From: a virus
DNA: 64,000 nt
Strand: one strand, 5' to 3'
IMG/VR virus record: IMGVR_UViG_3300033143_001281
Location: 1-64,000 of that record
Below the pieces are notes generated by a model. That model ran no database searches. It was given only the letters and a program-made list of their open reading frames with translations, and was not told where the DNA came from. Positions 3,938 to 47,969 of this stretch are shown piece by piece. The first letter of the stretch is position 1. The number at the start of each line of letters is the position of its first letter. The position numbers were made by a program, and so were the translations under genes.

Positions 3938-4272
3938 TTTAACTCAATTGTAAAGAATGGTAATACAACTAATATAGCCATACCATTTCCATATCCTTTA
4001 GTATCTACGGCTAACGCTAAGCCAAATACTGGTGCAAATTCAAATTTAAACTTTGGTAACATATCTGTTTTACTCATAAATGATGCAAAAAATATACAAT
4101 TTATATATGTTCCAATAAGAATTGTTAATAGCCCTAATCCTAAGAGATAATTATCATCTCCGACCATACTATCACTTCTATCAAGGGTTAAATTTCCCAA
4201 AGTTATTGTAACTATAATTGGTAGTAGTACTACGAAGAATAGTTTTACGAATGATTTCAACATTATTTTCAT
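3928..4272 (-). CDS. Small integral membrane protein, 114 residues
   Basis: Several hydrophobic segments are visible: residues 7-27 (FVKLFFVVLLPIIVTITLG), about 44-68, and about 80-110 ending in LVVLPFFTIELKWV. Together they suggest three or four inner-membrane helices. I do not recognise the family. It sits between a lipoprotein gene and the DUF4846 gene, overlapping the latter, so all belong to one exported or membrane-protein cluster. It could help localise the DUF4846 protein or alter the host envelope, but the sequence does not show this. Confidence 0.65.
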   Translation of the reverse strand: MKIMLKSFVKLFFVVLLPIIVTITLGNLTLDRSDSMVGDDNYLLGLGLLTILIGTYINCIFFASFMSKTDMLPKFKFEFAPVFGLALAVDTKGYGNGMAILVVLPFFTIELKWV

Positions 4273-4301
4273 TTCTATTAATTATTTAATTAGTTACTTG
4301 A

Positions 4302-4775
4302 TTAATTTTCTGTTACTGTATCTCCATTGTTATAAAACGTGTTTATATCAAATGGCACAAGAAATCTATTCCATTGATTACCGACTTGATAATCTATTTT
4401 ATCTTGTTGATTTATGTAATCTATGTCAGTTATTACTATAACATCTATATCAATTACAAATGTATCAACAAAATTTCCTGATGCCCATTGCATAAATTGT
4501 TCTGCGTCACTGGATATATTAGTATTTTGTGCATAGTCTAACCATTGATTCCAAACAAATTCATATTTGGTTTCTGCGGTTATACCATTGCTATCTATAC
4601 TATAGAAGCCTAACAATATATACATAGTTTCATTATTCTGAGCAAAACTATATGCTTCAGAGAATACTTTGACTGTGTCTGTATTCATTTGATTTACCTC
4701 TGGTGTAAACAAAGGCTCTTGCTCACAGCTTGTAATCATAACTGCAAGCAAGAATATTTGCATTATCTTCCCCAT
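4302..4775 (-). CDS. Putative lipoprotein, 157 residues
   Basis: The N-terminus MGKIMQIFLLAVMITSCEQE is a lipoprotein signal peptide: short basic start, hydrophobic core and a Cys in a lipobox-like ITSC. The start could instead be the Met at residue 5. The mature part is acidic with no recognised domain. It overlaps the 55-residue lipoprotein gene upstream by 13 bases. It is probably anchored in the envelope of a Bacteroidota host after early expression; its role is unknown. Confidence 0.68.
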   Translation of the reverse strand: MGKIMQIFLLAVMITSCEQEPLFTPEVNQMNTDTVKVFSEAYSFAQNNETMYILLGFYSIDSNGITAETKYEFVWNQWLDYAQNTNISSDAEQFMQWASGNFVDTFVIDIDVIVITDIDYINQQDKIDYQVGNQWNRFLVPFDINTFYNNGDTVTEN

Positions 4776-20465: not shown

Positions 20466-22041
20466 ATGGCAACTCCAGTTTTAAATAATGGGATTTTCCT
20501 AAGAGATACAAGCTATAAAGCTAGTTCTCATGTTGATTCGTATCACCTTACCCAAATGCTTGGTAATCCTGAGCCTATGGATATGGGACCAATTGATCTT
20601 TGGGCTATGACCCAAAAGGTAGAAATGCCTTTGTATCAAATGGCTTCTTTTGGTATGGCAAACTCCTATTGCACAAGACCTTCCTTACATTGTAGCTGAC
20701 ATTGAACCTGCTAACGCTAGCAAAGGTATTGATGGAACTACTTTTAAGATTAAGGTTAACAAGAGATCATTTGGTCATGGTGATATTATCACATATGACA
20801 AGTATAATGGTCTTGAATTATACATTACTGCGGATGATATTATCCCTGCAGGTGATGGTTTTGTTTATACAGTACAGTTGGTAAACAACAATAATAGTGC
20901 TGTATTAGACAACAAGTATCTTGCAAAAGGAACTAAATTCTTTAGAAAAGGTTCTGCAAGAGGTGAGTATGGTGAAAGATTTTCTGACATTGAAACAGGA
21001 TCTGGATTCCGTGAATTCTACAACTTTGTAGGAGGAGCTGAAGCACACGTACACTATTCTATTTCTAGCCGTGCTGATCTTATGATCAAAGGTGGTTTGA
21101 ATGCTGATGGTACTGTACCAGTAACTGAGATTTGGAGAAACTTTGATACTGACCCAAATAATCCATCTGTACCTAGTATTGAAGGATTAGTAGCATCTAT
21201 GGGTAAAGCTGGTGCAAGAGAAGCATTTGAAAATGGAACTCTTACACGTACTTTCATTACAAATATGGAAGCAGCACATTTATCTAAAATTGCTACAGAT
21301 ATTGAAACTTACCTCATGTGGGGGAAAGGTGGTAGAATTAAGCAAGACGGTCCAGATGATATTAGATTATCTGTTGGTTTATGGTCTCAGTTGGATAACT
21401 CATTTAAAAGAGTATACAACAAGTCATCATTTACACTTGACATGTTTAAATCTGAGCTTTACAACTTCTACCAAGGAAAAGTTGAATTCAAAGGACCAGA
21501 CCCACAAAGATCACTTGTTGTACAAACAGGTATTGGTGGTATGCAACTTATCAACAAAGCAATTGCTGATGAAGTATATGGTTCTGGTTTAGTTCAAAAT
21601 GCTACTGATGTTGGAGCTGTAACAGGTAAAGGCATGGATTTAGATTATGGTTTTGCTTACACAAGCTTTACTATTCCTTTCTTAGCTAACGTTAAGTTTG
21701 TATTGAATCCGGCATTTGATAACTTAAATACTAATGACATTGAGAATCCATTAATTGATGGAAGACCTCTAAGTTCATTTAGTTTTATCATCTTTGATGT
21801 AACTGATGAAGGTAATGACAACATTCACTTGTTGAAACTTTCTTGGGATAATCAACTTAAGTGGTTCTACCAAAATGGTACTATGGACTACATGGGAAGA
21901 ACTCAAGGATTTGCATCTACTGGACAGTTCAATGGATATAGAGTTTATATGACTCAAACCATGCCAGCTATATGGGTTAAAGATCCGACTAAAGTTCTAA
22001 AAATTGTAATGAGAAACCCTGTAACAGGAGGATCATTCTAA
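20466..22041 (+). CDS. Major capsid protein, interrupted by an apparent frameshift
   Basis: The N-terminal 77 codons (from ATG 20466, MATPVLNNGIFLRDTSYKAS, then VEMPLYQMASFGMANS) end in a stop at 20697-20699. The rest reads on in the +1 frame from about 20650 (WQTPIAQDLPYIVADIEPAN) to 22041 for some 460 more residues. Both parts are recognisable as one crAss-like HK97-fold capsid protein; in relatives the MASF and WQ.P segments are in one frame, separated by a short stretch that seems to be missing here. The break may be a deletion or assembly error, or less likely programmed frameshifting. It forms the capsid shell. Confidence 0.82.
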
Positions 22042-27240: not shown

Positions 27241-29556
27241 ATGGCAAGTATCAAATTTTTAAATAATATTACCTTAGTGGGTAATCAGCTAGAATTAGCT
27301 AGGATTCAAAATTTAGGTAGTGCTCCCACGGTTTACGGTGATGGTCAATTATATTATGATACTGCCACCAACAAACTTACATTACGTGAAAATGGAAATT
27401 GGGTGCCTATCCAAACAGGACCAGAAATATCTTATGATTTAACTGTCCCAAGTGGAACAACAGCAATTAGATTAACTGATGGAACTACAAATGATGATAT
27501 CACTATTACAGGTGGTACAAATGTAACAGTTGTAAGAACAAGCGCAACAGAGCTTACTATTAATGCAACAGATTCTGCTGCAGGTACAGTAACTAGTGTA
27601 GCTGGAGGAACTGGTATTACAATAAGTGGTACACCTACAGTTACACCAACTGTTAATATAGATTACTTAGGTGCAGACAACGCAATTTTAGCCACGCCAT
27701 CAAGTGCAACTCCTGTTGGTGCTGATACAGTGTGGTTCTCAGATGCTGATGATAGTAACATCAAAAAAGCTACTATTTCATCATTTCCAGGTTTTGGTAA
27801 AGATGGTACAGTAACAAGCGTTGGTACTAGTAACTCAACATTTATATCTGGATCAGGTGGACCAATTACAAGCTCAGGATCTTTAACATATAGTTTAAGT
27901 GCAACAGGAACACCAAGTGCAACTACATTCCTTAGAGGTGATAATGCTTGGGCTACTCCTGCTGGTGCATATACAGACTGGAAATTAATTGGTGATGGCG
28001 GTACACCTGTAGATATTGGTGATGGTGAATCAGTAAACTTTATAGGTGGTGCAGGTATTGATGCTACAGCTGCAAGTGGAACGCCAAATACTTTAACATT
28101 AGCTTTAGATCTTAATGAATTACAAGCTGTATCCGCAGCTTCATCTGATTATATTGCTATTGTAGATTCAACAGATAACTCTACTAAAAAAGCATTGGTT
28201 AGTAGTTTACCATTTACTAACAATAGTGGTGTAACTTCAATTAACTTAGCTGGTGATAGTGGTTCAACAAGTGCTATTACTTCAACAGGTACATTTACTA
28301 TTGCAGGCGGGACAAACGTTACAACATCTGCTACAGGTACTACAGTAACAATTAATTCTACAGATCAATTCCAAGGTACAGTAACAAGTGTAACTGCAGG
28401 GCTTGGTTTAACGCAGACTGGTACAAGCACTGTTAATCCTACAATATTAGTAGATTACTCTAATGCAGGTATTATTGCTGATGCAACCGGTATGTCAGGT
28501 TCTGCAGAATCAGATGATATAATTTTATTAGCTGATGATAGTTTAAGTGGTGCTGTTAGAAGTGCTTCTTTAGTTGATATCCCATTAAACGTATTAGGAC
28601 AACCTAATGCATCTGTAAATTTAGGCTCTCAGAAAATAACTTCTCTTGCTAATGGTACTGCTAGTTCAGATGCTGTTAATTTAGGACAAGTACAAGGATT
28701 AATTGCAGGAGTAGGTTTATTCAAAGGTGGATATAATGCAAATACAGGTTTAACTACAGACTTAGGTGCAGGAAATGGTTCATTAGATGGGGCAAGTAAC
28801 ATTGCTTTAGACTTAGGTGACTTCTTTGCTGTAACAGTTGCGGGTACTGCGTTTTTTACAGAGACGTTAGAACCTGGAGATATGATCTATGCTAACACTG
28901 ATATTGCAGCTAATTCAAGTCCTTCAATTAGTGATTATACTGTAGTAATACAAGATGCAAACGTTGCAGGTGTAGGTGCTACAGATGGTGGCACAGATAA
29001 AGGTGTTGCTGGATTTAGTAGTGCATCTTTTGCTGGTACATCAAATGGATTTATTACAATTAAAGCTGGTGGTATTAGTGATGCTCAGTTAGCAAGTACA
29101 TTTAATAAGATCATTGGTACGGACTCAGATATTAATACTTCAGGTGTTATTGTAATTGATCAGTTAAATATGACTGATGGTGTTATTCAGTCACACACTA
29201 CAAGATCATTACCTAATTCTACAGAAACATCAGTTGGTGTAACTGAAATTGCTACACAAGCAGAAGTAGATGCTGGAACAGATGATTTCAGATATGTTAC
29301 TCCTGAGAAGTTAGCAAATTATGCAAGTATTAAAACTTTTGTAGGTACGTATCCTGCTACAAATACTAATAGCTGGACAGTAGCCCATGGTTTAGGAACA
29401 GCTGATGTAATTGTACAAATTTATGAGTTATCATCAGGAGCAACTGTATATGCAGATGTACAAAGAGATACGTCTTCTCCATATAGTTTAACTATCAACA
29501 CAGGATCAACTACTACAGCAAGTACGCTTAGAGTTATGGTTACTAGGGTAGGATAA
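27241..29556 (+). CDS. Tail fibre-like protein 1, 771 residues
   Basis: The N-terminus has LNNITLVGNQLELARIQNLG then GDGQLYYDTATNKLTLREN, an attachment module common in marine phage fibres. Repeats of the form GTVTSV.(A/G)G.G(I/L).(I/Q)(S/T)GT follow near 115 and 378. Near 622 is GTDSDINTSGVIVIDQLNMT, shared with fibre 2. The C-terminus (SWTVAHGLGTADVIVQIYEL ... LRVMVTRVG) is a fibre-tip beta domain. It probably binds host surface glycans or proteins. A perfect 11-bp terminator follows. Confidence 0.8.
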   Translation: MASIKFLNNITLVGNQLELARIQNLGSAPTVYGDGQLYYDTATNKLTLRENGNWVPIQTGPEISYDLTVPSGTTAIRLTDGTTNDDITITGGTNVTVVRTSATELTINATDSAAGTVTSVAGGTGITISGTPTVTPTVNIDYLGADNAILATPSSATPVGADTVWFSDADDSNIKKATISSFPGFGKDGTVTSVGTSNSTFISGSGGPITSSGSLTYSLSATGTPSATTFLRGDNAWATPAGAYTDWKLIGDGGTPVDIGDGESVNFIGGAGIDATAASGTPNTLTLALDLNELQAVSAASSDYIAIVDSTDNSTKKALVSSLPFTNNSGVTSINLAGDSGSTSAITSTGTFTIAGGTNVTTSATGTTVTINSTDQFQGTVTSVTAGLGLTQTGTSTVNPTILVDYSNAGIIADATGMSGSAESDDIILLADDSLSGAVRSASLVDIPLNVLGQPNASVNLGSQKITSLANGTASSDAVNLGQVQGLIAGVGLFKGGYNANTGLTTDLGAGNGSLDGASNIALDLGDFFAVTVAGTAFFTETLEPGDMIYANTDIAANSSPSISDYTVVIQDANVAGVGATDGGTDKGVAGFSSASFAGTSNGFITIKAGGISDAQLASTFNKIIGTDSDINTSGVIVIDQLNMTDGVIQSHTTRSLPNSTETSVGVTEIATQAEVDAGTDDFRYVTPEKLANYASIKTFVGTYPATNTNSWTVAHGLGTADVIVQIYELSSGATVYADVQRDTSSPYSLTINTGSTTTASTLRVMVTRVG

Positions 29557-29627: not shown

Positions 29628-32600
29628 ATGGCAATAAAATTCTTAAATAGTCAATCCATAACGGGTTCCCTTACAGTTAGTTCAATATCTAATGCGTCAT
29701 CTGATACAGATAAGTTTTTAGTAAGTGATAATGGTATTATTAAATATAGAACTGGTGCTCAAGTTTTAGCAGATATAGGGGCTGGTACAGGTGATGGTTC
29801 TGTAACTTCTGTAGGTTTAGGATCATTAGATGGAATATCTGGTTCTATTGCTAATCAAACTACAACACCATCAATAAGTCTTACAAATACTGATAAAGGA
29901 TCAGCACAAAATATATTTAAAAATGTTGCGGTTTCAGGACAAGGAACAATTGTAGCTGATTCAAATAATGATACTATAACGTTAGTAGGTACAGGTGTAT
30001 CAATAACTACTAATGCTACAACTGATACAATTACATTTTCAGCATCTAATAATTATTTAACAAGTGCAACATTTAATACTTCAGACGGTGTATTAACACT
30101 TAATAGACAAGGTCTTTCTGCAGTAACTGTTGATCTTGATGGTAGATACGTTACATCTTCAGGTGTAACATCTGTTGCAACAACTTTTCCTGTATTAGGA
30201 GGAACAATTACAAGTACAGGAACTATTAGTGTTAAAACACCTGAAAGTGGAGATTGGTGGAATGGCGGTGTACCTGTAGTAGGAACAGATGGTGTAATGG
30301 AAATTGGTAAGTATATTGATTTTCACGCTACTGATACTGCTACTTCAGATTTTGATGTAAGATTAACAGCTACAACTGGTAGTTTAGATGTATCAGGAGA
30401 TATAGTAATAGGTGGTGGTGATATAACTCTAACTGGTACAGGAAGAATTCAAGGTGTGGATACTGTATCTGCAGGAACTGATGCAGCTAATAAAACTTAT
30501 GTAGATAATGCTGTTAGTGGTTTTGTTGATGGTTCTGGTACAGCTAATGATGTAGCAATGTGGTCAGATAGTGATACATTAACAGATGCACCAATAGCTA
30601 TTTCTGGAAATAATGCAACTTTTGCAGGGACAGTTTATATACCTTCAAAGTTAGAGCATACTGGAGATAGTGATACTTTTTTGAATTTTTCAGATAATAC
30701 TATAACACTAACCGCAGGTAACTCTTCTACAATTTTTTCAGGTAATGGTAATGTAACTTTTCCAGGTGATATTTCTATTGCAGGTGGTGATATTACTTCT
30801 AATGGTATACAAATTATAAGTAATTCAGCTTCATCAAATCATTTAAAAATAGGTGATATTTCTGTTGATGATTCTATACAACAAATCTATTTAGATACAT
30901 GGGGTGCTACACAAATATATTTAGATGATAATGAAACTGATATTAAAAGTGATACAGTAAAATTTTCTGGTGGAATACAAACATCAGCACCAACAACTTA
31001 TTTAGGTTTAACATCAACTAATTTATTAACAGAAAGAACTCTAGCACAAACTAAAACAGATTTAGGTATTATTACTACTGTTCAAACTGCAAATCAAAAT
31101 AGGATAGCAGTTAGTAACATTAATGGGCCGGTTGTATCAATAGATGCAAATACATCAGCAGTAAGCAGTTCTTCATCAAATTTAGCTACAGGTGCACAAA
31201 TACAAACAGCTATAGATACAGCAATAACAGGAGTATTAAAATATCAAGGAACCTGGAATGCATCTTCAAATTCACCAACATTAACAAGTGGATCAGGTAC
31301 ACCAGGTTATTATTACATTGTATCAACAGCAGGATCTACTAACCTAGATGGCATAACAGATTGGGCCGTAGGAGATTGGGCAGTATTTTCTGATTTAGCA
31401 ACAGATGCATGGCAAAAAATAGATAACACTCAAGTTGGTAATGTAACAGGTTCTGGAGCAAGTGGTAAAGTTGCTTTTTGGAATAGTTCATCAAATATAA
31501 CAAGTAATTCAGCATTTACTTATGATGGCAATAATTTAGCTGTTGGTGGCAGCATGACCTGGTCGGGTGGTAGTTCAACTGAATCTAATTTAGCTTATGA
31601 TAGAAGTATTACTTCATTTGGTGATTCAGGTACGTCTACCGTGACGTTAACAATAGGTAGACAAGATGGTAATACTTTAAGCACATCATTTAACGTACCA
31701 CAAGGAACTGTAACTGGTACTGGGTCTAGTGGAAGAGTAACATATTGGAATTCTTCAACAGGTGTAACAAGTAATTCAGCTTTCACATTTACAACTAATA
31801 ATGGTGGTAGATTACAAGCAAATAATGTAATTCTTCCAAATGATGGAAATTATTTAGGTTTTGATACAAGTGGTAATGCTAGAACTGTAGCAACACTTGA
31901 TTCTAGTAATAATATTGAAATATCAAACGCTGCTTTACAAAGCGGATCTAATACAAATATATATGGTGGTGATAATACTATATTTTATGTAGGAGGTTCA
32001 GAAGAATTAAGAATAAATAATGTAGGAGCTATTGGTATTGCTGGAACAAATTATGGTACATCAGGACAAGTTTTAACTTCTTCTGGTTCAGGATCAAATC
32101 CAACATGGTCAAATCCAAGTACAGGTAGCAACAATTATGTAAGCTCTGTTAGTTTTAATACTAGTGATGGTATACTTACTCTTAATAGAAATGGATTAAG
32201 TGCTCTAACTGTTGATTTAGATGGTAGATATAATCCTACTATAGGTACAGATACTGATATCAATACATCAGGATATAGTATTATTGATCAGATTAACATG
32301 ACTGATGGAGTTATAACATCTACTGGTGCAAGAAACTTATTAAATGTACATATAGAAGATACTAGAGCAGCAGAAAAAACACCTAATGATTATCAGGACA
32401 AAGCATTATCACTTGACTTTACAGATGAATTTGGTTCACTAGGATCATGGTGGAGTGGTATTACTATGAAAGGTTGGGCTGATAATTATCAAGCATGGCA
32501 GCTTATTAGTGGTTCTGATACAAGTGCTGATAACGTATTATATTTTAGAACTGGTATTGGTACAACATGGGGAGACATGCATGAAGTATGGGGTTCCATG

Positions 32601-33899
32601 AGTTCTAAAGGAGAATTTGGTGATAATCATAGTATTACAGGTGATAGATCTTTTGCTTTAGGTGATGGTAATACTGCATCTGGTATTAATTCAGTTGCTT
32701 CAGGTAATATAACTACTGCATCAAATTTTGCATCAGTTGCATTTGGATATGATACTACAGCTAGTGGGGCAACTTCTATGGCTATAGGAGCATTAACAAC
32801 AGCCTCTGGATCTAATTCATTTGCAGCTAATGGAAATTCAAGAGCAACTGGTCAAGATTCATCATCTTTTGGTCAAGAAACTTTAGCATCTGGTAATCAG
32901 TCCTTTTCTATAGGGTATAAGACAACAGCAAGTGGTGATTCCGCATTTTGTGGAGGTGGTGAAGGTTCTTCTGCTACTAATACAAACTCTTTTGCTTTTG
33001 GTGCAGATGTAGATGTTACGGCTGCACACAGTGCTGGTTTTGGTAGAACACATGATATTTCTGGTGTAGAACATTTAGTAGGTGGTTTATCTAATACTAT
33101 TAGTGGGGGTGCCAATTTAGTTGGTGGATCAATAAATACATTAGCAGGTTCACCTGAAGGTTTACTTATGTGTGGTGCTAGTAATTCTAATTTAAGTGGT
33201 GCTGGTGATTATAGTTTAATAGTAGGTCAATCTAATCAATGTCAATTTGGTGATTGGAGTTTTACTGGTGGTAAAGATTCAGACAACTTTAGTAATTTTG
33301 GTATTGCATATGGTTCTGGTGCTACTGCAAGTAAAGCAAATACAAATTTTGCTTTTGGGGAAGGTGTTACAACACCAACTAATGCAACAGCAGCAAATGA
33401 TGCTAATCAATTTGTGGTTGGTAAATATAATAGTTATAGTGATGGTAGAATACATAGATTTTCAGTAGGTAATGGTACAAGTGATCTTAGCAGATTCACT
33501 GCATTTTGTGTAGATAATTCAAGTAGAGTTGGTATCAAAGATCCTACGCCATCATATGAATTAGATGTAACAGGAACAATTAGAGCAACTGGTAACGTTA
33601 TAGCATTTTCTGATGAAAGAGTTAAAGAAAATATTAAAACAATTGATTCAGCATTAGATAAAGTAAATAATTTAAGAGGTGTTGAGTTTAATAAAATAGG
33701 TGAAGAAAAAAAGTCTATTGGTGTTATAGCCCAAGAAATAGAAAAGATACTTCCAGAAGTAGTTGAAACAGATGATAAAGGAATGAAATCAGTTGCTTAT
33801 GGAAATATTGTAGGTGTCCTTATAGAAGCTGTTAAAGAACAACAAGCACAAATAAATCAACTTACAGATATAGTAGAAGAATTAACTAAGAGAGTTTAA
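29628..33899 (+). CDS. Tail fibre-like protein 2 with YadA-like repeats and S74 autocleavage domain, 1423 residues
   Basis: The N-terminus (FLNSQSITGSLTVSSI) is of the same attachment type as fibre 1. Repeats include two copies of FNTSDG(V/I)LTLNR.GLSA(V/L)TVDLDGRY and two of NSS...(I/V)TSNSAF. Residues about 994-1110 are left-handed YadA/Hep-Hag head repeats (DRSFALGDGNTASGINSVAS, SFSIGYKTTASGDSAFCGGG). From about 1326, FSDERVKENIKTIDSALDKV then SIGVIAQEIEKILPEVV is the Peptidase_S74 intramolecular chaperone, which trims itself off after trimerisation, using the Ser of FSDERVK. It ends in a coiled coil. It is a strong host-receptor-binding candidate. Confidence 0.9.
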   Translation: MAIKFLNSQSITGSLTVSSISNASSDTDKFLVSDNGIIKYRTGAQVLADIGAGTGDGSVTSVGLGSLDGISGSIANQTTTPSISLTNTDKGSAQNIFKNVAVSGQGTIVADSNNDTITLVGTGVSITTNATTDTITFSASNNYLTSATFNTSDGVLTLNRQGLSAVTVDLDGRYVTSSGVTSVATTFPVLGGTITSTGTISVKTPESGDWWNGGVPVVGTDGVMEIGKYIDFHATDTATSDFDVRLTATTGSLDVSGDIVIGGGDITLTGTGRIQGVDTVSAGTDAANKTYVDNAVSGFVDGSGTANDVAMWSDSDTLTDAPIAISGNNATFAGTVYIPSKLEHTGDSDTFLNFSDNTITLTAGNSSTIFSGNGNVTFPGDISIAGGDITSNGIQIISNSASSNHLKIGDISVDDSIQQIYLDTWGATQIYLDDNETDIKSDTVKFSGGIQTSAPTTYLGLTSTNLLTERTLAQTKTDLGIITTVQTANQNRIAVSNINGPVVSIDANTSAVSSSSSNLATGAQIQTAIDTAITGVLKYQGTWNASSNSPTLTSGSGTPGYYYIVSTAGSTNLDGITDWAVGDWAVFSDLATDAWQKIDNTQVGNVTGSGASGKVAFWNSSSNITSNSAFTYDGNNLAVGGSMTWSGGSSTESNLAYDRSITSFGDSGTSTVTLTIGRQDGNTLSTSFNVPQGTVTGTGSSGRVTYWNSSTGVTSNSAFTFTTNNGGRLQANNVILPNDGNYLGFDTSGNARTVATLDSSNNIEISNAALQSGSNTNIYGGDNTIFYVGGSEELRINNVGAIGIAGTNYGTSGQVLTSSGSGSNPTWSNPSTGSNNYVSSVSFNTSDGILTLNRNGLSALTVDLDGRYNPTIGTDTDINTSGYSIIDQINMTDGVITSTGARNLLNVHIEDTRAAEKTPNDYQDKALSLDFTDEFGSLGSWWSGITMKGWADNYQAWQLISGSDTSADNVLYFRTGIGTTWGDMHEVWGSMSSKGEFGDNHSITGDRSFALGDGNTASGINSVASGNITTASNFASVAFGYDTTASGATSMAIGALTTASGSNSFAANGNSRATGQDSSSFGQETLASGNQSFSIGYKTTASGDSAFCGGGEGSSATNTNSFAFGADVDVTAAHSAGFGRTHDISGVEHLVGGLSNTISGGANLVGGSINTLAGSPEGLLMCGASNSNLSGAGDYSLIVGQSNQCQFGDWSFTGGKDSDNFSNFGIAYGSGATASKANTNFAFGEGVTTPTNATAANDANQFVVGKYNSYSDGRIHRFSVGNGTSDLSRFTAFCVDNSSRVGIKDPTPSYELDVTGTIRATGNVIAFSDERVKENIKTIDSALDKVNNLRGVEFNKIGEEKKSIGVIAQEIEKILPEVVETDDKGMKSVAYGNIVGVLIEAVKEQQAQINQLTDIVEELTKRV

Positions 33900-35240: not shown

Positions 35241-37451
35241 ATGATCCCAACAAATTCAAGTATAACCACAAACGGTTGTGATAATATATCATCCAATTGT
35301 GTAATTTGGCAAGGGCCAGATATTGCATGTATAGATTTATGTACTGGTGATACTATAAGCATAGTTACAAAAAAAATTGCAGATAAGGTTTGTCAAATTA
35401 TAACTGATGGTGTAACTGCTAATCCGGACTTAACAGGATTAGATTTAAGTTGTCTTAATATTCAAGGTGTAACACCAACAGAATTGGTTCCTGTTCTTCA
35501 GGCAATGGTTACTCAAATATGTGCTAACACAAATAGTAGTGGCGGTGGAGGTCTTGGTCCTTTACCAACTATGACATTACCTGCTTGTTTAGTGTATGAT
35601 GATCCAAGTGGAAACCCAGTAACACAATTACCACTAGATCAATTTGCTACATTAATTGCAAATCAGGTATGTACTAATTTAGCAAGTATTACTACTATAA
35701 ATGCTACTTTAACAAGTTACAATACTAGAATTACAACTTTAGAAAATTGTGTTTTACCTTGTGGTGGTTCAGTAGCAGAAGTTCAAATAGTACCTACTTG
35801 TGTAAGTAATGTAGGTCAATTAACTAATGTATCAGTAGTAGTATTAGCACTTGAAAGTGCGTTTTGTGCATTACAAACGGCTGTTGGTTTACCTGGAGCT
35901 ATATCTTCTGCAATATCTCAAACAGTAATTACAGGATCTTATAATACACTAACAGATAATAGTGTTTCCTATGGAAGTATTGTTGGTTGGAATAATAGTC
36001 CAAGTACATTGGCAGAAAGCGTTCAAAATGCATGGGTTGTAATTGATGATTTATATAGTGCAGTAGCAGCTATACAAACAAATTGTTGTCCTGGTGGATG
36101 TGACAGTGTAGTTTTTGCATACTCTACATCTACTCAAATTAATACATCAGGTGTAATAACAGGTATTAATTTTGATTTTACAGGATCTACTATACCTGCT
36201 TCATTTAATGATACATCAGGTTATTCTATTATTACTTTAACAGATGCAAATGGAGCTTCAACAAATACAGTATTTAGTGTAGCAAGTTTACAAAATAATC
36301 CAGCAGGATTATTAGTGTCAACTGGAACTTTAAATACTTTTCAAAATATTCAAGTTTCTTTAAGTTTCTCAGTTACTGATGGTAGTGATACATGTGAAGC
36401 AGCTCAAAATTCTGTGGTTAATGGCGTAATACCTTGTCCAACTATGTTATCATCAGGAATTACTACAACAGAAGCAACAATATCATTTGGTAATTTATTA
36501 GGTACTAGTGCTGTATATACATTAGACTTGTTAGATGTTAGCAATAATGTGGTTGCTACACAAGTATTTAATAATCCAGGTGTATCATTAACACATACAT
36601 TTACAGGATTAACTCCAGGTAGTAATTATACAGCTAGGCTTACTATAGGTATTGGTGGAGCAACTGAGGTGTGTACTAATACAATTAATTTTACAACAGT
36701 TAATGGTGCAGCACCATGTACAGATGGTATGGATGTAGCATTTGTTATTGATTACACTTTCTCTATGGGTAGTGAAATAAATGCAATTAAAACTGGATTT
36801 GCTTCATTAGTAAACACTATTCAAACAAGCTCAGGAGCTAATAACTATAGAATAGGTGTTACTACTGCTGATGAATATACAGATCCTACTACTCAACCTA
36901 CTTATAGTGCATGTGCTGATTATCAAGCATTACCAGCTTCGCAAAGAATTATAAATACAGGAATAGGACATACACAAGTTATTACAGCTTGGGAAATGTT
37001 CTCAGATAATAATGGTGCAAGTGCTACAACACAAGTTAATTTACTTAATGATGGTGTGGGTGATGGTACAGGATGTATTCAATTAGGTAATGGTGGTGGT
37101 GCTCCTGAACCAACAGATATGGCCATAAATCAAATATTAAATAATGATTTCTTAGGCGCTTGGAGACCAAACGTTGCTAAGTATATTATTGTTATAACAG
37201 ATGAATTGTCAGGTGGTCCAGACGATAGCTTTACTGCAGTAGATTATGCACAAATACAAACGTTTATTAATCAAGCATTAGCACAAGGAGTTACAATATT
37301 TGTTCTAGGTGAAGGGGTTGATAAAACATTTAATAATGGTGGTACTTTAGTATTCCCATGGAGAGAGTTAGCAGATCAAACAGGAGGTAGTTGGAATATA
37401 AATGAAGATCCATCTACAATAAATGCAGAAATAGTAGCTGGTTGTTCATAA
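35241..37451 (+). CDS. Virion protein with FN3-like and von Willebrand A domains, 736 residues
   Basis: The N-terminal 100 residues are Cys-rich with CIDLCTGDTISIVTKKIADK VCQ, a module seen in related tail proteins. Later comes an FN3-like domain near 395-485 (ATISFGNLLGTSAVYTLDLL, TFTGLTPGSNYTARLTIG). Residues about 495-735 form a VWA domain: DVAFVIDYTFSMGSEINAIK carries the metal site as D-x-T-x-S, with GVTTADEYT and YIIVITDELSGG as further loops. VWA domains bind proteins through a bound metal, so this may be an adhesin or a protein-assembly hub on the tail. Confidence 0.78.
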   Translation: MIPTNSSITTNGCDNISSNCVIWQGPDIACIDLCTGDTISIVTKKIADKVCQIITDGVTANPDLTGLDLSCLNIQGVTPTELVPVLQAMVTQICANTNSSGGGGLGPLPTMTLPACLVYDDPSGNPVTQLPLDQFATLIANQVCTNLASITTINATLTSYNTRITTLENCVLPCGGSVAEVQIVPTCVSNVGQLTNVSVVVLALESAFCALQTAVGLPGAISSAISQTVITGSYNTLTDNSVSYGSIVGWNNSPSTLAESVQNAWVVIDDLYSAVAAIQTNCCPGGCDSVVFAYSTSTQINTSGVITGINFDFTGSTIPASFNDTSGYSIITLTDANGASTNTVFSVASLQNNPAGLLVSTGTLNTFQNIQVSLSFSVTDGSDTCEAAQNSVVNGVIPCPTMLSSGITTTEATISFGNLLGTSAVYTLDLLDVSNNVVATQVFNNPGVSLTHTFTGLTPGSNYTARLTIGIGGATEVCTNTINFTTVNGAAPCTDGMDVAFVIDYTFSMGSEINAIKTGFASLVNTIQTSSGANNYRIGVTTADEYTDPTTQPTYSACADYQALPASQRIINTGIGHTQVITAWEMFSDNNGASATTQVNLLNDGVGDGTGCIQLGNGGGAPEPTDMAINQILNNDFLGAWRPNVAKYIIVITDELSGGPDDSFTAVDYAQIQTFINQALAQGVTIFVLGEGVDKTFNNGGTLVFPWRELADQTGGSWNINEDPSTINAEIVAGCS

Positions 37452-40014: not shown

Positions 40015-40686
40015 ATGGCAACAATAGCAGAAACAATATCTAGAATTAGGGGTCAAGTCAAAGCTGAAGTTCAAGATGCTTTTGTTACTGATAGATATAT
40101 TTATAGTCTTATTGAAAAATATGCTCAGTTCTTAATGAGAAGGCAAGACTATGCAAACAAACTTATAAAATTTAATTCAGTTTGGAAAACATTACCATAT
40201 GTAGAATTGATTGAGGTAGATAAAGTAGAAGCACATTGTGCTGGAATACAAAGTGGTTGTACAATAAAACGTACAAAAAATAAACTTCCATCAATGTTTG
40301 AAGGATATTGGGGACCTCTTATACGAACCATAAGTTCTATTGATGGATCACAAGAGTTACAAGCAACTCAACCAGGAACTTATACCTCTATGACTAAAAC
40401 TACTACTTTTAAATATAATAGATCATTATATTTTTGGTGGCTTGATGGTTATATATATTGCCCAAACATAGAATGGGATGCTATTAAAGTTGAAGGTGTA
40501 TTTGATTCTGATATTACTAAATGGGATTGTGATATAGAAAATGACTGCACACCTAGATATGATCAACAAATATTTATACCAGAGGCTTTGTTTGCAGAAA
40601 TAGAAAGTCAAGTTGTTGCAGCAATGACAAATACAATGCAAATCCCTTCAGAAGATTCTGATAACAAAAGAAACATAAATAGATAA
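40015..40686 (+). CDS. Ring/neck protein candidate, 223 residues
   Basis: The protein starts with ATIAETISRIRGQVKAEVQD and AFVTDRYIYSLIEKYAQFLM RRQDYANKL, a helical beginning, and continues with beta text (YVELIEVDKVEAHCAGIQSG, CTIKRTKNKLPSMFEGYWGP). The pattern (I..IR...K....D...TDR.IYS.I......L..R) is shared by neck proteins of crAss-like phages as I recall them. It ends two bases before the next neck candidate. Confidence 0.65.
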   Translation: MATIAETISRIRGQVKAEVQDAFVTDRYIYSLIEKYAQFLMRRQDYANKLIKFNSVWKTLPYVELIEVDKVEAHCAGIQSGCTIKRTKNKLPSMFEGYWGPLIRTISSIDGSQELQATQPGTYTSMTKTTTFKYNRSLYFWWLDGYIYCPNIEWDAIKVEGVFDSDITKWDCDIENDCTPRYDQQIFIPEALFAEIESQVVAAMTNTMQIPSEDSDNKRNINR

Positions 40687-40688
40687 TA

Positions 40689-41627
40689 ATGGGAGTATCA
40701 CATAAATATAGAACGTTTAGTCAATTAATGGAAGATGTATCTATTGATTTTTCTACATATGCATTAGAAGGTATGATAGAACCTCAACAGCTAATAAAAG
40801 TTGCACAAAGGGTAAACTATGATTTAGGTTTAAAAATACATAGAACTAAGCAAGTAATAATTGATATTGAACATGGTAAAGGACAATTACCTGTAGATTT
40901 TAAATATATTAATTATGCATTTAGATGTGGTAATTATAAAATAAACACAACAATGCCGTCAGGTACACACGTTGAAACATTTAATGATGTTCCATATGTA
41001 CCTGCACCAGGTGAGAAAGCTCCGTGCAATACAGATCCTACATGTAAAGATGTATGTGTAATTAAAACATGTGATGATGAAAAAAGTTATCAATTAGTTC
41101 AAAGAGTTGGACCAGATCAGTATAGATGCTTTGATAGTTGGACACAACTTAGAATTCAAGATGTTAATGATGCTGTATGTTATTGTCCAACATTAGGAGC
41201 ACAAGCATTAGATATTGCTGAAGTAAAAGATGGATGGCTTATTACAACTTTTAAAACAGGTAAAGTTTATTTGAGTTATCAAGGAGCTATGGAAGATACT
41301 TTTGGTGATTTACTGGTATTAGATCATCCATACTGTAATGAATATTATGAGTATGCCATAAAACAAAGAATACTTGAGAATATGGTTTGGCAAGGAGAAA
41401 ATGTATCTAATCAATTAGGATTAGTAGAACAAAGGTTAAGAGCTGCAAGAAATAATGCATTAGGTTTTGTTAATACTCCTGATTTCAAAGATATGTGGAA
41501 AGTCTTTACAATGAATAGAAGAGCACAGTATCATAATTATTATAATATGTTTTTGAGTTATGCTCCTATAAATCCAAGAGTTGTTTCTGCACCAAATGTT
41601 TCATCAAGCGGTAGCACAACAGTTTGA
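40689..41627 (+). CDS. Ring/neck protein candidate, 312 residues
   Basis: The protein begins MGVSHKYRTFSQLMEDVSID FSTYALEGMIEPQQLIKVAQ, then LGLKIHRTKQVIIDIEHGKG and LPVDFKYINYAFRCGN, which is the usual layout of this crAss-like neck family. The middle holds a Cys-rich loop (CNTDPTCKDVCVIKTC). The C-terminus is helical (YAIKQRILENMVWQGENVSN). Such proteins stack between portal and tail hub. It is followed by the tail stabilisation protein gene 18 bases on. Confidence 0.72.
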   Translation: MGVSHKYRTFSQLMEDVSIDFSTYALEGMIEPQQLIKVAQRVNYDLGLKIHRTKQVIIDIEHGKGQLPVDFKYINYAFRCGNYKINTTMPSGTHVETFNDVPYVPAPGEKAPCNTDPTCKDVCVIKTCDDEKSYQLVQRVGPDQYRCFDSWTQLRIQDVNDAVCYCPTLGAQALDIAEVKDGWLITTFKTGKVYLSYQGAMEDTFGDLLVLDHPYCNEYYEYAIKQRILENMVWQGENVSNQLGLVEQRLRAARNNALGFVNTPDFKDMWKVFTMNRRAQYHNYYNMFLSYAPINPRVVSAPNVSSSGSTTV

Positions 41628-41645
41628 AAATAGAAGTAATATATT

Positions 41646-44600
41646 ATGGCAAAAAAAAGATCATCTTCTTCAAATAACAGGCAGAGGCAATCTAGAACAA
41701 GTTCATCTGTGCAAACAAATTCATTCACTAAAGGAATGAACAAAGACATTGCACCTTCTTTGGAAAATAACCAAAGTTGGTGGCATGCACGTAATGCTGC
41801 AAATAATTCAGAAGATGGTGATGTGGGTGTTATTGGTAATGAGCCAGCTAATTTAGCTTGTGGTGTTATACCATATACAATCATTGGTGCTGTTCATAGA
41901 TATGGGGATGAGTGGATAGTATATTCTACAGATGATATTAATTCTGAAATAGGAAAATTTGATGACAGTGAATGTAAATATGAAACACTTGTTAATGATC
42001 CTTGTTTAAACTTTAATAGAAAATATTTAATTACAGGTGCAGCAAAAGAAAATTTTGATTGTACATGGCAAGTCTATTGGGATGATGGTAATAATCCATC
42101 AAGAACATTAAATATTGATGACATACCTTGGAAAAAAGTTCAAGTCACAGGTCCAGATATAGATGGTAGTGATTGTGTTACTTATGAAGTTATTGAGCCA
42201 AAAAGATTAGACTGTGAACAAATAAGATTAGCGCCTTTAGTTGATACACCTTGTATTGTTTTAAGCAATTCAACTGACTCAGGTATGATACGCAATGGTG
42301 CTTATCAAGTGTTTGTTGCATATGTAGAAAATGAAGTAAGAGTAACTGATTATATTGGTATTTCAAATATTCAGACTATATGGAGTCATGAGGGAAGTAA
42401 TGGTTCTTTAAATATAAGTTTATCTAATTTAGATAAAGATTATGAATATTATGAAGTAGTACTGCTTAGAAGAAACCAAGGTCAAACTTCTGCTAAAAGA
42501 ATTGGTTTTTATAGTGTCCAGCAAAGTGATATAAATATAGATTATATAGATGAATCATTACCAGCAGTATCTTTAGAAACAATTCCTTTGCGTAGTCCAG
42601 CCTATGAAAAATCTGAATCAATGTTTGTTGTAAATGATTGGCTGATAAGACAAGGCCCAACAGAACAATTTGATTTTAATTATCAACCAGATGCAAACAA
42701 CATTCAAGTAGAATGGGTTGCTAATGCAGAAAATACTAACTTTTACTATAAAGGCGGTAATAAATATAATTTTTTAAGAGATGAGCAATATGCTTTCTTT
42801 ATAAGATGGATATATAATACAGGAGAAAGATCTTCTTCATATCATATACCTGGTAGAGCACCAGAATCTTATACTACTCCCAGCGGTTTAGTATATCAAG
42901 AAGATGAGATAATTTATGGAGATAATGTTTTAGATACTGTAAGTGGAGATAAACTATTTAAAGTATATAATACAGCTTCAGTTACTTCATTAGTTACTGA
43001 AGAGTTAGATGATGGTACTGTTGTTTATGCAAGAGGAAAAATGGGATATTGGGAATCTACGGAAAGATATCCTATGAAGCCTGATATTTGGGGTGACTTA
43101 TGTGGTAAGCCCATAAGACATCACAAAATGCCATCAGAAGAAACATCTAATGCATTAGCACTAACAAACACAAGTGGTGATTTAATAAATATATTGGGTG
43201 TTCAATTTTCTAATATTGCAAGACCCAAATATAATGATGGTACATTTATACCAAATGTAGTAGGATATGAGATACTAAGAGGTTCTAGATTAGGTGCAAA
43301 ATCTATACTTGCAAAAGGATTATTTAGAAACATGCGTAAGTATACTGTTCCTAATCCGGAAGATTTAATTGGAAATAATGTTCAAGGCTTATATGTAAAT
43401 TATCCTTATAATGATCTTAGACCAGATATTTATTTTCACACAGGTGGATCAGGTAGTTTAAAAAGAACAGATGGTTGTGATTCATTTGATGGTTCTATGA
43501 CATCTTATCAAGCATTAGGTGATGAACCTGATATAGGTGGTGAGCCGGCAGGTTATTCAAGAAAAGTTTTTAGTTTTTCTTCTCCTGATTTAATGTTTAC
43601 AAAGCCATTTTTAAATGCTTATGAAACTCGTATATATGGGCAGCTAAGTGGTAATGCAACTGGTAGATTTAAACAATCAGAAGACCATCCTCAGTTTAAG
43701 TTATTAAGAGGTGGTGCTGCATTAGTAGCATCTATTATAGGTTTTGGATATGCAATTCATCAGATTAGAGGTACAGAAGGTAGAAGAATGAATTCTACTG
43801 GAGGTAATATGACAAGTATTTCAGGTAAAGGAGAAGAAATAAAAGGTACAGAGCAAAGGGGTAACAATGGATTTGTTACGTTAACTGTACCACCTGGTGT
43901 TGCTACGGTAAATTGGAGTCCAAGAAGTGGAGGAGTAATTTCTGGTGGTGATTGGGAAATACAAGATCCTGCTAAGCTAACTACATATCAAACAGCTGCT
44001 ACTGCAGCAGTTGGTGCTTCTTCAGGCTCATCATTAGCATTATCTTTATTAATGGAAAGTTTAGCTGGTATAGGAGATTTATATACTGGTGGATTAGTTA
44101 CTGAGATTCAAGAAGGCGCTCAAATCACACAAAATGCTGGTCATGCAAGTGTGTTGGGTGTCAATTCAGGAATACAAACAAATACAAGAACAAAAGATAC
44201 AAGTACATCTAATATTCCACAAATATTTAGAACAATTACTGGTTTATTAAGTACTCAAACAAATCTTGCTATAGGAGGTAATGAAATTATTGAACTTCTA
44301 TATAATTTAGCAGATGAATCTTCTTTTGCATACAAGTACAATTCAGAAGGTTTTTTCTTTGATTTCTCAAATCAAACAAATGGTTTATGGAGAATAAAAA
44401 ATACTGATTCAAATTATATTGGTCAATCATTTCAAACATTTAATCAAGGTGAATATAAAATAAATAATTTATATAGACCTAGTACAGTTGCTGTAGCTTT
44501 AGATAAAGAATTAACTGATCCAGCTACAGTTGATACATCTAGATTTTCTATAGGTGGTGAACTGAATTTAACTTTAAATGCCGCAGGAGAATATGTAAGT

Positions 44601-47600
44601 TCTACTCCAGTAGAGTTTAGTGATAGTTATTTGCTAGAACCTACTACTGAAAGAGGATCAACAATATCAGCATATTATGGTGCATTAAAATTTAATTTTG
44701 ATAATCAATATGGTCAGTTATCTGGTATCAAACAAGTTCAAATGCGTGGTTGTGTTGAGCTGCTTGATCCTGATAAACCAGATGAATATTTATACAGCAG
44801 TAAACCTATTTTTGCAGGAGATACATTTGTAGGTAGGTATACTGAAAAAGTTATAATGCCAATATTTAGTAATTATTTATTAGGCCAACCTGATAATTAT
44901 ACTTTTGATTATTCTTTATATGTAAACATACCTTACCCAAGATGGTGGTTAAATTCTCAAAGATATGACATCACACCATTAGCAAGAGAAATAGCTACTC
45001 TAGGTCTTGTTAGTACTGGCTCTTTAGAAGCTCTTTATCCAAATGATTTATTTTATTTGGATAGAGGTAATGATTCTTGTGCTACAGGTTTTAATGCATT
45101 ATTTAATGATGATGATCCTAATCCAACATTTGAAATGCTATATGCATATATGTATACACATATTAATGGTATGTTAGATTTTTATGTGGAGTCTGAAATT
45201 AATTTAGATCAAAGAGATTGGGAAGATGAACCAGCAAAAAGAATATACAGTGTTTATGATTATAATGATACTGATGAATTATTCCATGCAGCTATAGAAA
45301 AAGAAGACAACTTTTATAAATATGATGAATCATTAAGTGTTGGAAAGTTTCCTACACAAATGGCATCTTTTGCTGAAGTACAGCGTTTAGATTATGATCC
45401 TTACATTGCTGAGACTTGTTATGTAAATTATCCTAAAAGGTTAATATATTCTTTACAGGCACAAGAAGAATCAAGAAAAGATTATTGGAGAGTATTTTTA
45501 AATAACAACTATAGAGATTTTAAAAATGATGTTAGTGTTATAAAACCAATCAATAAAAGCGGTGCATTAATATTCTTTCCACATTTGTCACCTCAAATGT
45601 TTCAGGGACTTGATACATTGAAGACTCAGCTTGATACTAAATTAACAATAGGTGATGGTGGTTTGTTTAGTCAACCCTTCCAAAATGTTGCAAATGCAGA
45701 TATATCTAATGAGTATGGTTCATGTGAAAGTTTAAGAGGTGTTATTAATACACCTGTTGGTTTATTTTTTATATCACAAGCACAAGGTAAGATATTTCAA
45801 TATGCTGGTAAAGGTCTTCAGCCAATATCAAATCAAGGTATGAAATGGTGGTTTGCAAAATATTTACCATCTAAATTTATAAAACAATTTCCAAATTCAG
45901 AGACATCAGTATGGACAGATAATCCAGTTCAAGGTGTGGGTTGTCAAGTTATATATGATTCAGTAGATGATGTAGTTTATTTTATGAAAAAAGATTATAA
46001 ACTTAAATCTCAATATATTGCAACAGCAGAATTTGTTGACACTGATTATAAGCCGGTTATTGTAGAAACTGTACCTGGTGTAAAAGTTAATGTAGACATA
46101 GGTGATCCAATTTATTTTGATGATTGTTCATGGACTATTAGTTATGATCCTAAAGTTAAAGCTTGGATTTCATTTCATGATTGGCACCCTGAATTAGCGT
46201 TACCAAGTATAAATCATTTCTTTACTACAAAAACAACAACTACTACTATACCTCAATGTCCTCCAGGATATTCTTATAATCCTTCAAATGGTTTGTGTGA
46301 AATAGCAATTAATCAAACTGTAGATGCAACTATTGTTGTTGATGAAATAACTGAAAATGTTGTATCAGGTGGACCAGTTAATTGTTTGGTAGATGTTGTG
46401 ATTGCAATGGACACTTCTGGTAGTACAAATAGTGCTAATAGAAGACAAGCACAACTTGCCCTTGTTGCTGCTTTCTTAGCGGATCCTCAAATAGTAACTT
46501 TGATGAATAATGCACAGATGCAGATTGGATTTACAGAATGGGATACTACAACTCAACCTTATAATATTCCTAATCCTGCTGGTGGTACTTGGTCTATGAG
46601 TAATACAGTTACTAATGCAGCGGTACAAAACTGGTATAACTCAGTATGGTGTGTTGGAGGAGGTTGTGGTACAAGTGAAATTGTAGGTTTGAATGGCGCA
46701 CAAGCATTAATAAATAATAAGGCTGGTTCTCAACTAGGAGATAGAAGTGCTCAACCAAATTTTAGAAATGTTATTTTATTTATAACAGATACAACAGGTA
46801 CTCCTGGTGCACAAACTGGACAACCTTTTCAAAGTAGCAATGTAGGTACTGGTACTGGACCTGCTAACCAATTTTTGTATGGTATATATTGTGGTGCTAC
46901 AAATGCAACTCCACCTAGTACAGCAACATTAAATGCAATAACACAAACTACAGGACCAGTTAACGTTGATCCATTTCAATTTGGTATAAATGCTGCCAAC
47001 CCAGCAACTTTTCAACCTGTTGCAAATGCTATTGCTGGTGCAGTTTGTGGAACAGATTATGAGTGTGAATGTCCTACAGGCTATACATTAGTTTATCCAG
47101 ACCCTGTTACTTCATCATATAGTTCTGCTACTGGTACTTGTACAGATGTTCCTGGAGAAGCTCCAATATGTAGAAGAGTTACTTGTGAGTGTCCACCTGT
47201 TGTTGTGCCTGGAACAGTAGTTACCGAATTGGGAACTTGTCCAGATAGTGCTCCTGGAATATATGATATTGGTGATCCTAATTGGGTTGACCCAGATCCA
47301 AGACGTTGTAATTTTTATTTTTATGAAAGTACAACAGCTAATTTTGAAGTAGGATCATTTTGGAGACATAATGTAAGATGTGATTTATTTGCAAATTACT
47401 ATAATGAAGATTACCCATGGGAAATAGATTTAATATCTAATACCGGTCAGTCAGTAAACACAGTCCGTAGTTTTGAATATCAATTAGAGACTTATGTTTA
47501 TAAAGGAGATCCTCAATATAATATGTGTGGGGGAGATAAATGGGAAGATTTAGATTTTAATTTTGATAGAGCAATTGTATATAACAATGATCAGACTTCT

Positions 47601-47969
47601 GGATTATTAAATATTAATCAGCAGTCTACAAATGATCCTTGGGGTAATCTAACATATCCAATAATAAATTTTAATAGTATAGATATTTTAGCATCTAAAG
47701 TTGAACACAAATTTAGATTTAATCAATTTTGGGATATAACAAATGATAGAGGAGAATTTACAAATGTTGAGCAGTCTATATTTGATACGGAATGTAATGG
47801 ATATATAAGACCTTTAAATAGTATAAATTTAAATTATAATAAACCTCCAACACAAAGAAAGAAGTTTAGACATTATTCAAATCAAGTTATATTAAGAAGA
47901 CAGCTTTCAGGAAATAGAAAAATGTTATTAAGATTAAATAATACTAAGTTATTACTATCACAAAGATAA
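41646..47969 (+). CDS. Tail stabilisation protein (P22 gp10-like) with inserted VWA domain, 2107 residues
   Basis: After a basic start, TNSFTKGMNKDIAPSLENNQ SWWHARNA is the family's signature opening and leads into a beta-propeller-like body. About 1470-1525 has ISFHDWHPELALPSINHFFT, and near 1905 the body resumes with FWRHNVRCDLFANYYNEDYP WEI. Between them, about 1528-1900, sits extra sequence: a Thr-rich linker, CPPGYSYNPSNGLC, then a VWA domain with VVIAMDTSGSTNSAN (D-x-S-x-S) and NVILFITDTTG, then CECPTGYTLVYPDP. The protein closes the tail below the ring proteins. Its stop overlaps the next start as TAATG. Confidence 0.83.
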   Translation: MAKKRSSSSNNRQRQSRTSSSVQTNSFTKGMNKDIAPSLENNQSWWHARNAANNSEDGDVGVIGNEPANLACGVIPYTIIGAVHRYGDEWIVYSTDDINSEIGKFDDSECKYETLVNDPCLNFNRKYLITGAAKENFDCTWQVYWDDGNNPSRTLNIDDIPWKKVQVTGPDIDGSDCVTYEVIEPKRLDCEQIRLAPLVDTPCIVLSNSTDSGMIRNGAYQVFVAYVENEVRVTDYIGISNIQTIWSHEGSNGSLNISLSNLDKDYEYYEVVLLRRNQGQTSAKRIGFYSVQQSDINIDYIDESLPAVSLETIPLRSPAYEKSESMFVVNDWLIRQGPTEQFDFNYQPDANNIQVEWVANAENTNFYYKGGNKYNFLRDEQYAFFIRWIYNTGERSSSYHIPGRAPESYTTPSGLVYQEDEIIYGDNVLDTVSGDKLFKVYNTASVTSLVTEELDDGTVVYARGKMGYWESTERYPMKPDIWGDLCGKPIRHHKMPSEETSNALALTNTSGDLINILGVQFSNIARPKYNDGTFIPNVVGYEILRGSRLGAKSILAKGLFRNMRKYTVPNPEDLIGNNVQGLYVNYPYNDLRPDIYFHTGGSGSLKRTDGCDSFDGSMTSYQALGDEPDIGGEPAGYSRKVFSFSSPDLMFTKPFLNAYETRIYGQLSGNATGRFKQSEDHPQFKLLRGGAALVASIIGFGYAIHQIRGTEGRRMNSTGGNMTSISGKGEEIKGTEQRGNNGFVTLTVPPGVATVNWSPRSGGVISGGDWEIQDPAKLTTYQTAATAAVGASSGSSLALSLLMESLAGIGDLYTGGLVTEIQEGAQITQNAGHASVLGVNSGIQTNTRTKDTSTSNIPQIFRTITGLLSTQTNLAIGGNEIIELLYNLADESSFAYKYNSEGFFFDFSNQTNGLWRIKNTDSNYIGQSFQTFNQGEYKINNLYRPSTVAVALDKELTDPATVDTSRFSIGGELNLTLNAAGEYVSSTPVEFSDSYLLEPTTERGSTISAYYGALKFNFDNQYGQLSGIKQVQMRGCVELLDPDKPDEYLYSSKPIFAGDTFVGRYTEKVIMPIFSNYLLGQPDNYTFDYSLYVNIPYPRWWLNSQRYDITPLAREIATLGLVSTGSLEALYPNDLFYLDRGNDSCATGFNALFNDDDPNPTFEMLYAYMYTHINGMLDFYVESEINLDQRDWEDEPAKRIYSVYDYNDTDELFHAAIEKEDNFYKYDESLSVGKFPTQMASFAEVQRLDYDPYIAETCYVNYPKRLIYSLQAQEESRKDYWRVFLNNNYRDFKNDVSVIKPINKSGALIFFPHLSPQMFQGLDTLKTQLDTKLTIGDGGLFSQPFQNVANADISNEYGSCESLRGVINTPVGLFFISQAQGKIFQYAGKGLQPISNQGMKWWFAKYLPSKFIKQFPNSETSVWTDNPVQGVGCQVIYDSVDDVVYFMKKDYKLKSQYIATAEFVDTDYKPVIVETVPGVKVNVDIGDPIYFDDCSWTISYDPKVKAWISFHDWHPELALPSINHFFTTKTTTTTIPQCPPGYSYNPSNGLCEIAINQTVDATIVVDEITENVVSGGPVNCLVDVVIAMDTSGSTNSANRRQAQLALVAAFLADPQIVTLMNNAQMQIGFTEWDTTTQPYNIPNPAGGTWSMSNTVTNAAVQNWYNSVWCVGGGCGTSEIVGLNGAQALINNKAGSQLGDRSAQPNFRNVILFITDTTGTPGAQTGQPFQSSNVGTGTGPANQFLYGIYCGATNATPPSTATLNAITQTTGPVNVDPFQFGINAANPATFQPVANAIAGAVCGTDYECECPTGYTLVYPDPVTSSYSSATGTCTDVPGEAPICRRVTCECPPVVVPGTVVTELGTCPDSAPGIYDIGDPNWVDPDPRRCNFYFYESTTANFEVGSFWRHNVRCDLFANYYNEDYPWEIDLISNTGQSVNTVRSFEYQLETYVYKGDPQYNMCGGDKWEDLDFNFDRAIVYNNDQTSGLLNINQQSTNDPWGNLTYPIINFNSIDILASKVEHKFRFNQFWDITNDRGEFTNVEQSIFDTECNGYIRPLNSINLNYNKPPTQRKKFRHYSNQVILRRQLSGNRKMLLRLNNTKLLLSQR

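Follow-up and report, generated by a model that had tools for sequence, protein, structure and literature searches.

A von Willebrand A domain inserted in a crassvirus tail-tip muzzle protein: a probable exchangeable receptor-binding module

Results and Discussion

The muzzle protein encoded in the window, the 64,000-nt stretch of DNA analysed here, which is part of an 80,270-base IMG/VR record, carries a von Willebrand A (VWA) domain in a hairpin of its beta-propeller. We give a probability of about two in three to the reading that this insert serves the crassvirus muzzle as an exchangeable module for receptor binding. Host recognition is the best explanation because this adhesion-type domain at the tail tip is dispensable, exchangeable, and fast-evolving. 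The initial annotation had also proposed an adhesin-like domain, and this is still the best reading in view of the MIDAS, the exchange of payloads, the swaps, the amino-acid change, and the tail-tip location; that it acts independently of the fibres, as was claimed as well, we only infer.

The muzzle gene and its neighbours

The ORF that contains the insert matches the crAss_MUZ profile, PF25731, with 88.1 bits (E 5.6e-25; curated cut-off 27) in a Pfam profile search. Ring proteins 2 and 1 are encoded directly upstream of it, and the capsid protein, portal, and terminase farther upstream (Table 1). This match and the crassvirus gene order identify the product as the tail-tip muzzle protein. 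The earlier name, tail stabilisation protein, is indeed found on some deposited relatives, but the protein is the crassvirus muzzle. The muzzle N terminus gave no match in a PDB sequence search. The gp44 protein of phiCrAss001 belongs to the same family and has the same place in the gene order, after the ring proteins. According to the cryo-EM paper (PMC10172136), the muzzle of crAss001 forms a hexameric tail tip with a crass domain that is proposed to contact the cell surface, and muzzles differ in length through insertions in the crass and IG2 domains. The hexamer and the gate loop are known from crAss001 only.

The likely fibre genes of the window are separate from the muzzle gene, and the module would thus act in addition to the fibres. 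The product of the one at 29628-33899 (+) is probably a tail fibre, in which YadA head repeats are combined with a chaperone of the S74 endosialidase type; the one at 27241-29556 encodes a likely fibre with a YadA-like stalk. The same structural block includes a 736-aa protein (35241-37451, +) with a C-terminal VWA domain (PF00092, above cut-off) and a weak fibronectin III-like match. A relationship between this VWA domain and that of the muzzle was tested, and none was detected.

Table 1. Muzzle features and crassvirus genes in the window.
Feature	Position	Strand	Remarks
Crassvirus major capsid protein (Crass_capsid)	20650..22041	+	PF23898, E 4.4e-30
Tail ring protein 2	40015..40686	+	PF25702, E 9.3e-20
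Tail ring protein 1	40689..41627	+	PF24228
Crassvirus muzzle (tail-tip) protein, 2107 aa, insert carrier	41646..47969	+	PF25731; PHROG 37948/15100
Hypervariable muzzle segment, aa about 680-880, presumably crass domain	43683..44285	+	Codon changes, 11 sister pairs
Second socket (loop 1), aa 1452-1489, short in the window	45999..46112	+	Filled in 17 relatives (386-492 aa)
Whole inserted cassette, aa 1531-1904, 374 aa, in frame	46236..47357	+	Turn of 2-11 aa in 17 relatives; absent in crAss001 gp44
N cap, Thr-rich start and Cys-rich mini-domain CPPGYSYNPSNGLCE, aa 1531-1580	46236..46385	+	Own profile; invariant Cys
VWA domain, aa 1581-1800	46386..47045	+	AlphaFold; Foldseek, TMt 0.66-0.68
MIDAS motif 1, DTSGS (D1589, S1591, S1593)	46410..46424	+	D in 79/82, S in 79/82, S in 81/82 copies
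MIDAS motif 2, T1676	46671..46673	+	T in 69/82; 9 not aligned
MIDAS motif 3, D1715	46788..46790	+	D in 69/82; 9 not aligned
C cap, Cys-rich segment, aa 1801-1904	47046..47357	+	Own profile

Borders and parts of the insert

The insert is flanked by the motifs HPELALPS (aa 1514, nt 46185) and FWRHNVRC (aa 1905, nt 47358). The same hairpin measures 2-11 aa in 17 distinct muzzles from IMG/VR or named phages, among them those of Leptolyngbya phage Lbo-JY46 and csAssE-Sib, and crAss001 gp44 has a bare turn at this site, 'EFYAFKDGKMWEQF'. Thus, the motifs are normally one turn apart, which bears out the original claim that a VWA domain has been inserted between them. The span first assigned to the insert, 46213-47360, does contain it, but position 46213 is not the start of a codon, and the true borders are those in Table 1. 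The predicted order of parts, a Thr-rich linker, a Cys-rich mini-domain, a VWA domain with DTSGS, and a second Cys-rich mini-domain, was located in full within the cassette. An origin of the insert as a chance or frame artefact was also considered, and is ruled out by the single open frame and the conserved family.

The Cys-rich parts on either side of the VWA domain are referred to here as caps. In the window muzzle, the N cap cysteines are C1538 and C1551, and the VWA region is flanked by Cys-1580 and Cys-1801, both invariant in 23 sequences. The N cap profile matches nearly all filled sockets and the C cap profile most of them, the VWA-free ones included in both cases. Among EGF-type profiles, cEGF matches the caps in 8 of 23 (best 5e-4) and EGF reaches 0.02; members run singly stay below the cut-offs. 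Searches of Pfam and of PDB sequences, with either the window protein or the insert as query, returned VWA, EGF, and sushi matches, all weak. A tblastn search with the insert as query gave zero matches among 50,697 phage records, even at E 0.1, so that collection holds no recognisable relative of the insert.

Fold and MIDAS of the inserted domain

Residues 1240-2107 were modelled by AlphaFold with 39 related sequences. The VWA domain was predicted with high confidence (pLDDT about 85-93), with the expected order of strands and helices in beta/alpha alternation, so the structure prediction proposed as a check agrees with the initial annotation. A propeller strand continues into the insert as a stalk in the model, whose overall pTM of 0.45 is too low to orient the VWA domain against the propeller. 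A Foldseek search with the VWA model gave 149 PDB matches at E<=0.001, of which the best 50 are mostly VWA domains. Among the matches listed are collagen VI alpha3 N2, ANTXR2, and TRAP (TMt 0.62-0.68), and the top matches include the pilus tip adhesin SpaC (6m3y). Pfam scores the window insert at 12.7 bits for VWA_2, below the cut-off of 27 (E 0.2), and the best E for VWA in 23 relatives is 3.9e-5. Membership in the VWA family rests on the fold and the motif.

The complete set of MIDAS residues is present in 67 of the 82 related VWA copies, and several of the other 15 are aligned only in part. The retention of these residues in most copies while the surrounding loops vary bears on whether the insert could be a near-neutral passenger in a permissive hairpin that accepts any domain. 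Natural VWA-free versions of the muzzle with an intact reading frame (L026, L039, L040, and L049; L numbers denote related sequences) are what such a hairpin would allow. However, the payloads are adhesion-type folds rather than random ones, and the MIDAS residues decay more slowly than the surface loops, so the passenger explanation is disfavoured and we consider it very improbable.

A VWA-like domain in loop 2, the site of the window insert, of L077, L103, and L112 has Gln in place of the first MIDAS Asp (QADDST). To judge from this replacement, these domains have probably lost metal binding.

Empty sockets and other payloads

About 100 related muzzles were classed with profiles of the three insert parts. 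Of the 101 surveyed, 70 carry a VWA domain, 7 a payload without VWA, 8 just the two caps, 2 just the N cap, and 2 other material; 12 are empty, counting relatives placed in the tree. With VWA in 70 of 101, the insert is the usual state within the window's own clade and not a one-off. The check proposed at the outset, whether other genomes have different inserts in the same loop, thus has a positive outcome, with empty loops, caps only, caps with VWA, PA14/CBM-like payloads, and two domains all found.

The PA14/CBM-like payload replaces VWA, with the same socket and caps, in L050, L051, L066, L067, L068, L070, and L117. It matches Pfam PA14 with E 0.014-0.13, below the cut-off, and a medium-confidence model of the L051 payload resembles CBM35, a Marinomonas PA14 lectin, and CBM6 in fold (E 4e-4 to 1e-2). 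L103 apparently has a PA14-like domain together with VWA, and L112 has two VWA regions. In L049 (12519-12638), the N cap alone is retained; the C-terminal parts of its muzzle and of the window muzzle are 81% identical.

Loop 1, the second socket, has 29-124 aa in most relatives. In the 17 with the longer loop, it holds a VWA or, apparently, a PA14-like domain, with VWA in 11. The filled examples are L060, L104, L105, L106, L110, L115, L121, L122, L124, L125, L128, L129, and L131-L135. L128 and L132 encode giant muzzles of >3200 aa with both sockets filled and, behind the VWA domain, an extra stretch whose fold is unassigned.

The final strands of the propeller were read from secondary structure and alignment as A (LALP), B (INHFFTTKT), and C (FWRHN), which places the insert in a B-C turn. 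The preceding blade has the second socket at its own B-C turn, between VYFMKKDY and YFDDCSWT. In a beta-propeller, the B-C turns are on the same face as the joints between blades. In the crAss001 muzzle, the Ig domains are below the propeller, with the entry point of IG1 between blades 2 and 3. From these placements, we infer that both sockets should face the distal side.

Exchange and rate of change

A tree of the muzzle backbone without the loops, made by a quick method, requires at least 15 changes of payload state, and well supported branches force at least 10 changes of VWA presence. L026 and L040 have no VWA domain yet cluster with VWA carriers at about 90% identity, and from these sequences the losses look recent in places. 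Since VWA is absent from some close relatives, it is not essential. Swaps are also seen: L058 and L005 are 94% identical in the conserved backbone but only 34% in the VWA domain, whereas L017 and L019 are 83% identical in the backbone and 92% in VWA. The profiles along the gene for L017 and L019 show similar VWA domains but dissimilar variable crass-domain segments.

Codon changes were counted in 11 sister pairs. The counts of nonsynonymous to synonymous changes are 349 to 216 in the VWA domain, 77:146 in the caps, and 309:1020 in the remainder of the muzzle; these are raw counts, not fitted dN/dS, and are inflated by recombination swaps. The hypervariable segment in Table 1 has 288:211, with amino-acid change on a par with VWA, a figure that is descriptive because the segment was picked after inspection of the profiles along the gene. 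Compared with L010, its nearest relative, the window has 17:9 nonsynonymous to synonymous changes and a 3-aa indel in the VWA domain, against 20:44 changes elsewhere (Fisher p 0.003). Of the 20 changed VWA positions, 12 are in the MIDAS-face loops, which make up 28% of the domain. Family-wide, length variation is greatest in two MIDAS-face loops, and the loops of the opposite face vary too.

It is conceivable, although we think it unlikely, that the VWA domain has a structural or assembly function and grips a virion protein, such as a fibre, the tail hub, or a neighbouring muzzle, rather than the host. A precedent is the SU10 nozzle, a hexameric seven-blade propeller whose blade 1 has a docking loop for the short, receptor-binding tail fibre (PMC9509320). 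That loop lies off the tail axis. The fibre that it docks is a separate one, and by sequence reading the loop is at the neighbouring turn of the blade. Viral VWA proteins that are paired with MoxR/AAA ATPases have also been proposed to be chaperones (PMC7824862). The VWA proteins of archaeal and jumbo phages (CobT, MoxR-vWA) resemble the present case in that a VWA is encoded in a viral genome, but they are stand-alone enzymes or cochaperones, whereas the window VWA is a domain inside a tail-tip protein. A search of IMG/VR with the insert alone as query, together with one match in genome contigs, yielded 79 cassettes, and all 79 are within muzzle ORFs, so the cassette is never a separate cochaperone; 77 of these ORFs have both muzzle flanks and 2 have one. 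Furthermore, some close relatives have no VWA or have the PA14-like domain in its place, and VWA changes far faster than the remaining muzzle, unlike a conserved virion interface.

Less probable again is a generic surface decoration that binds environmental polysaccharide, mucus, or particles and keeps virions near hosts without host specificity. The PA14/CBM-like alternative payload would suit such a function, as would the position of the muzzle as the tip protein (PMC10172136). An arms race with a changing receptor accounts better for the swaps on near-identical backbones and for the strong excess of amino-acid change.

Proposed mechanism

For the receptor-binding module, we propose that the hairpin of the last propeller blade would be drawn out into a stalk, on which the two Cys-rich caps, possibly as a disulfide clamp, would hold the VWA domain with its intact MIDAS. 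If the muzzle is a hexamer, as in crAss001, six copies per virion would project from the periphery of the tail tip, with VWA probably distal and on the outer face. The domain may then bind a ligand on the host surface, either a protein or a glycan, with a grip that would be dependent on metal bound at the MIDAS. This binding step would occur after or beside that of the fibres, and the domain may have a part in triggering the muzzle gate. Among relatives, the payload is traded between the conserved caps.

A broader version of this proposal is more tentative. Crassvirus muzzles may have two standard sockets, the B-C hairpins of adjacent blades, fitted with conserved Cys-rich adapter caps. Adhesion domains of unrelated kinds (VWA, PA14/CBM-like, perhaps others) would be gained, lost, and traded between phages at these sites, with no tie to the fibres or to the crass domain. 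Together these would form a second tail-tip recognition system with an integrin-like metal-dependent grip that helps to open the gate.

Relation to known systems

In phiCrAss001 gp44, a tight turn takes the place of the 374 aa present in the window, and the available text of its structure paper reports no VWA or PA14 domain (PMC10172136). The insertions that the paper describes are in the crass and IG2 domains, while alignment puts the window socket at a hairpin of the propeller, close to the C-terminal part that joins the ring. The Gram-positive pilus tip adhesins SpaC, RrgA, and GBS104 likewise have a VWA domain within a larger tip protein; these are bacterial, with 11-14% identity in fold alignments, and the Cys-rich caps are the virus version's own. 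The Marinomonas MpAFP PA14 lectin and CBM35/CBM6 resemble the L051 payload in fold, a payload that the window does not have.

A full-text search of open-licence literature found no description of a VWA domain in a crassvirus tail. VWA or PA14 sockets in the muzzle were likewise not found in the literature searched, where length variation of this protein is already known. BFVD predicted structures of viral proteins that are unnamed or called 'stabilization' match our model over long stretches, so similar sequences have been deposited but are apparently undescribed.

For contact of the crassvirus muzzle with the cell and its opening, the cryo-EM paper only proposes the crass domain (PMC10172136). 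The natural variants with and without VWA, and the swaps on near-identical backbones, are ready comparisons for asking which part of the tail tip reads the host. Modular exchange is seen here in a protein regarded mainly as a gate, and an integrin-type MIDAS domain joins the repertoire of phage tail-tip parts.

Two further records concern the genomic context of related muzzles. In phage csAssE-Sib (L063), a gene annotated as TnpB family (3521-4744) is immediately before the muzzle gene. L151, a 114.7-kb contig within a Pseudomonadales MAG, encodes a VWA muzzle in full; it is probably a phage contig binned with that MAG, and the record name is no safe guide to the host.
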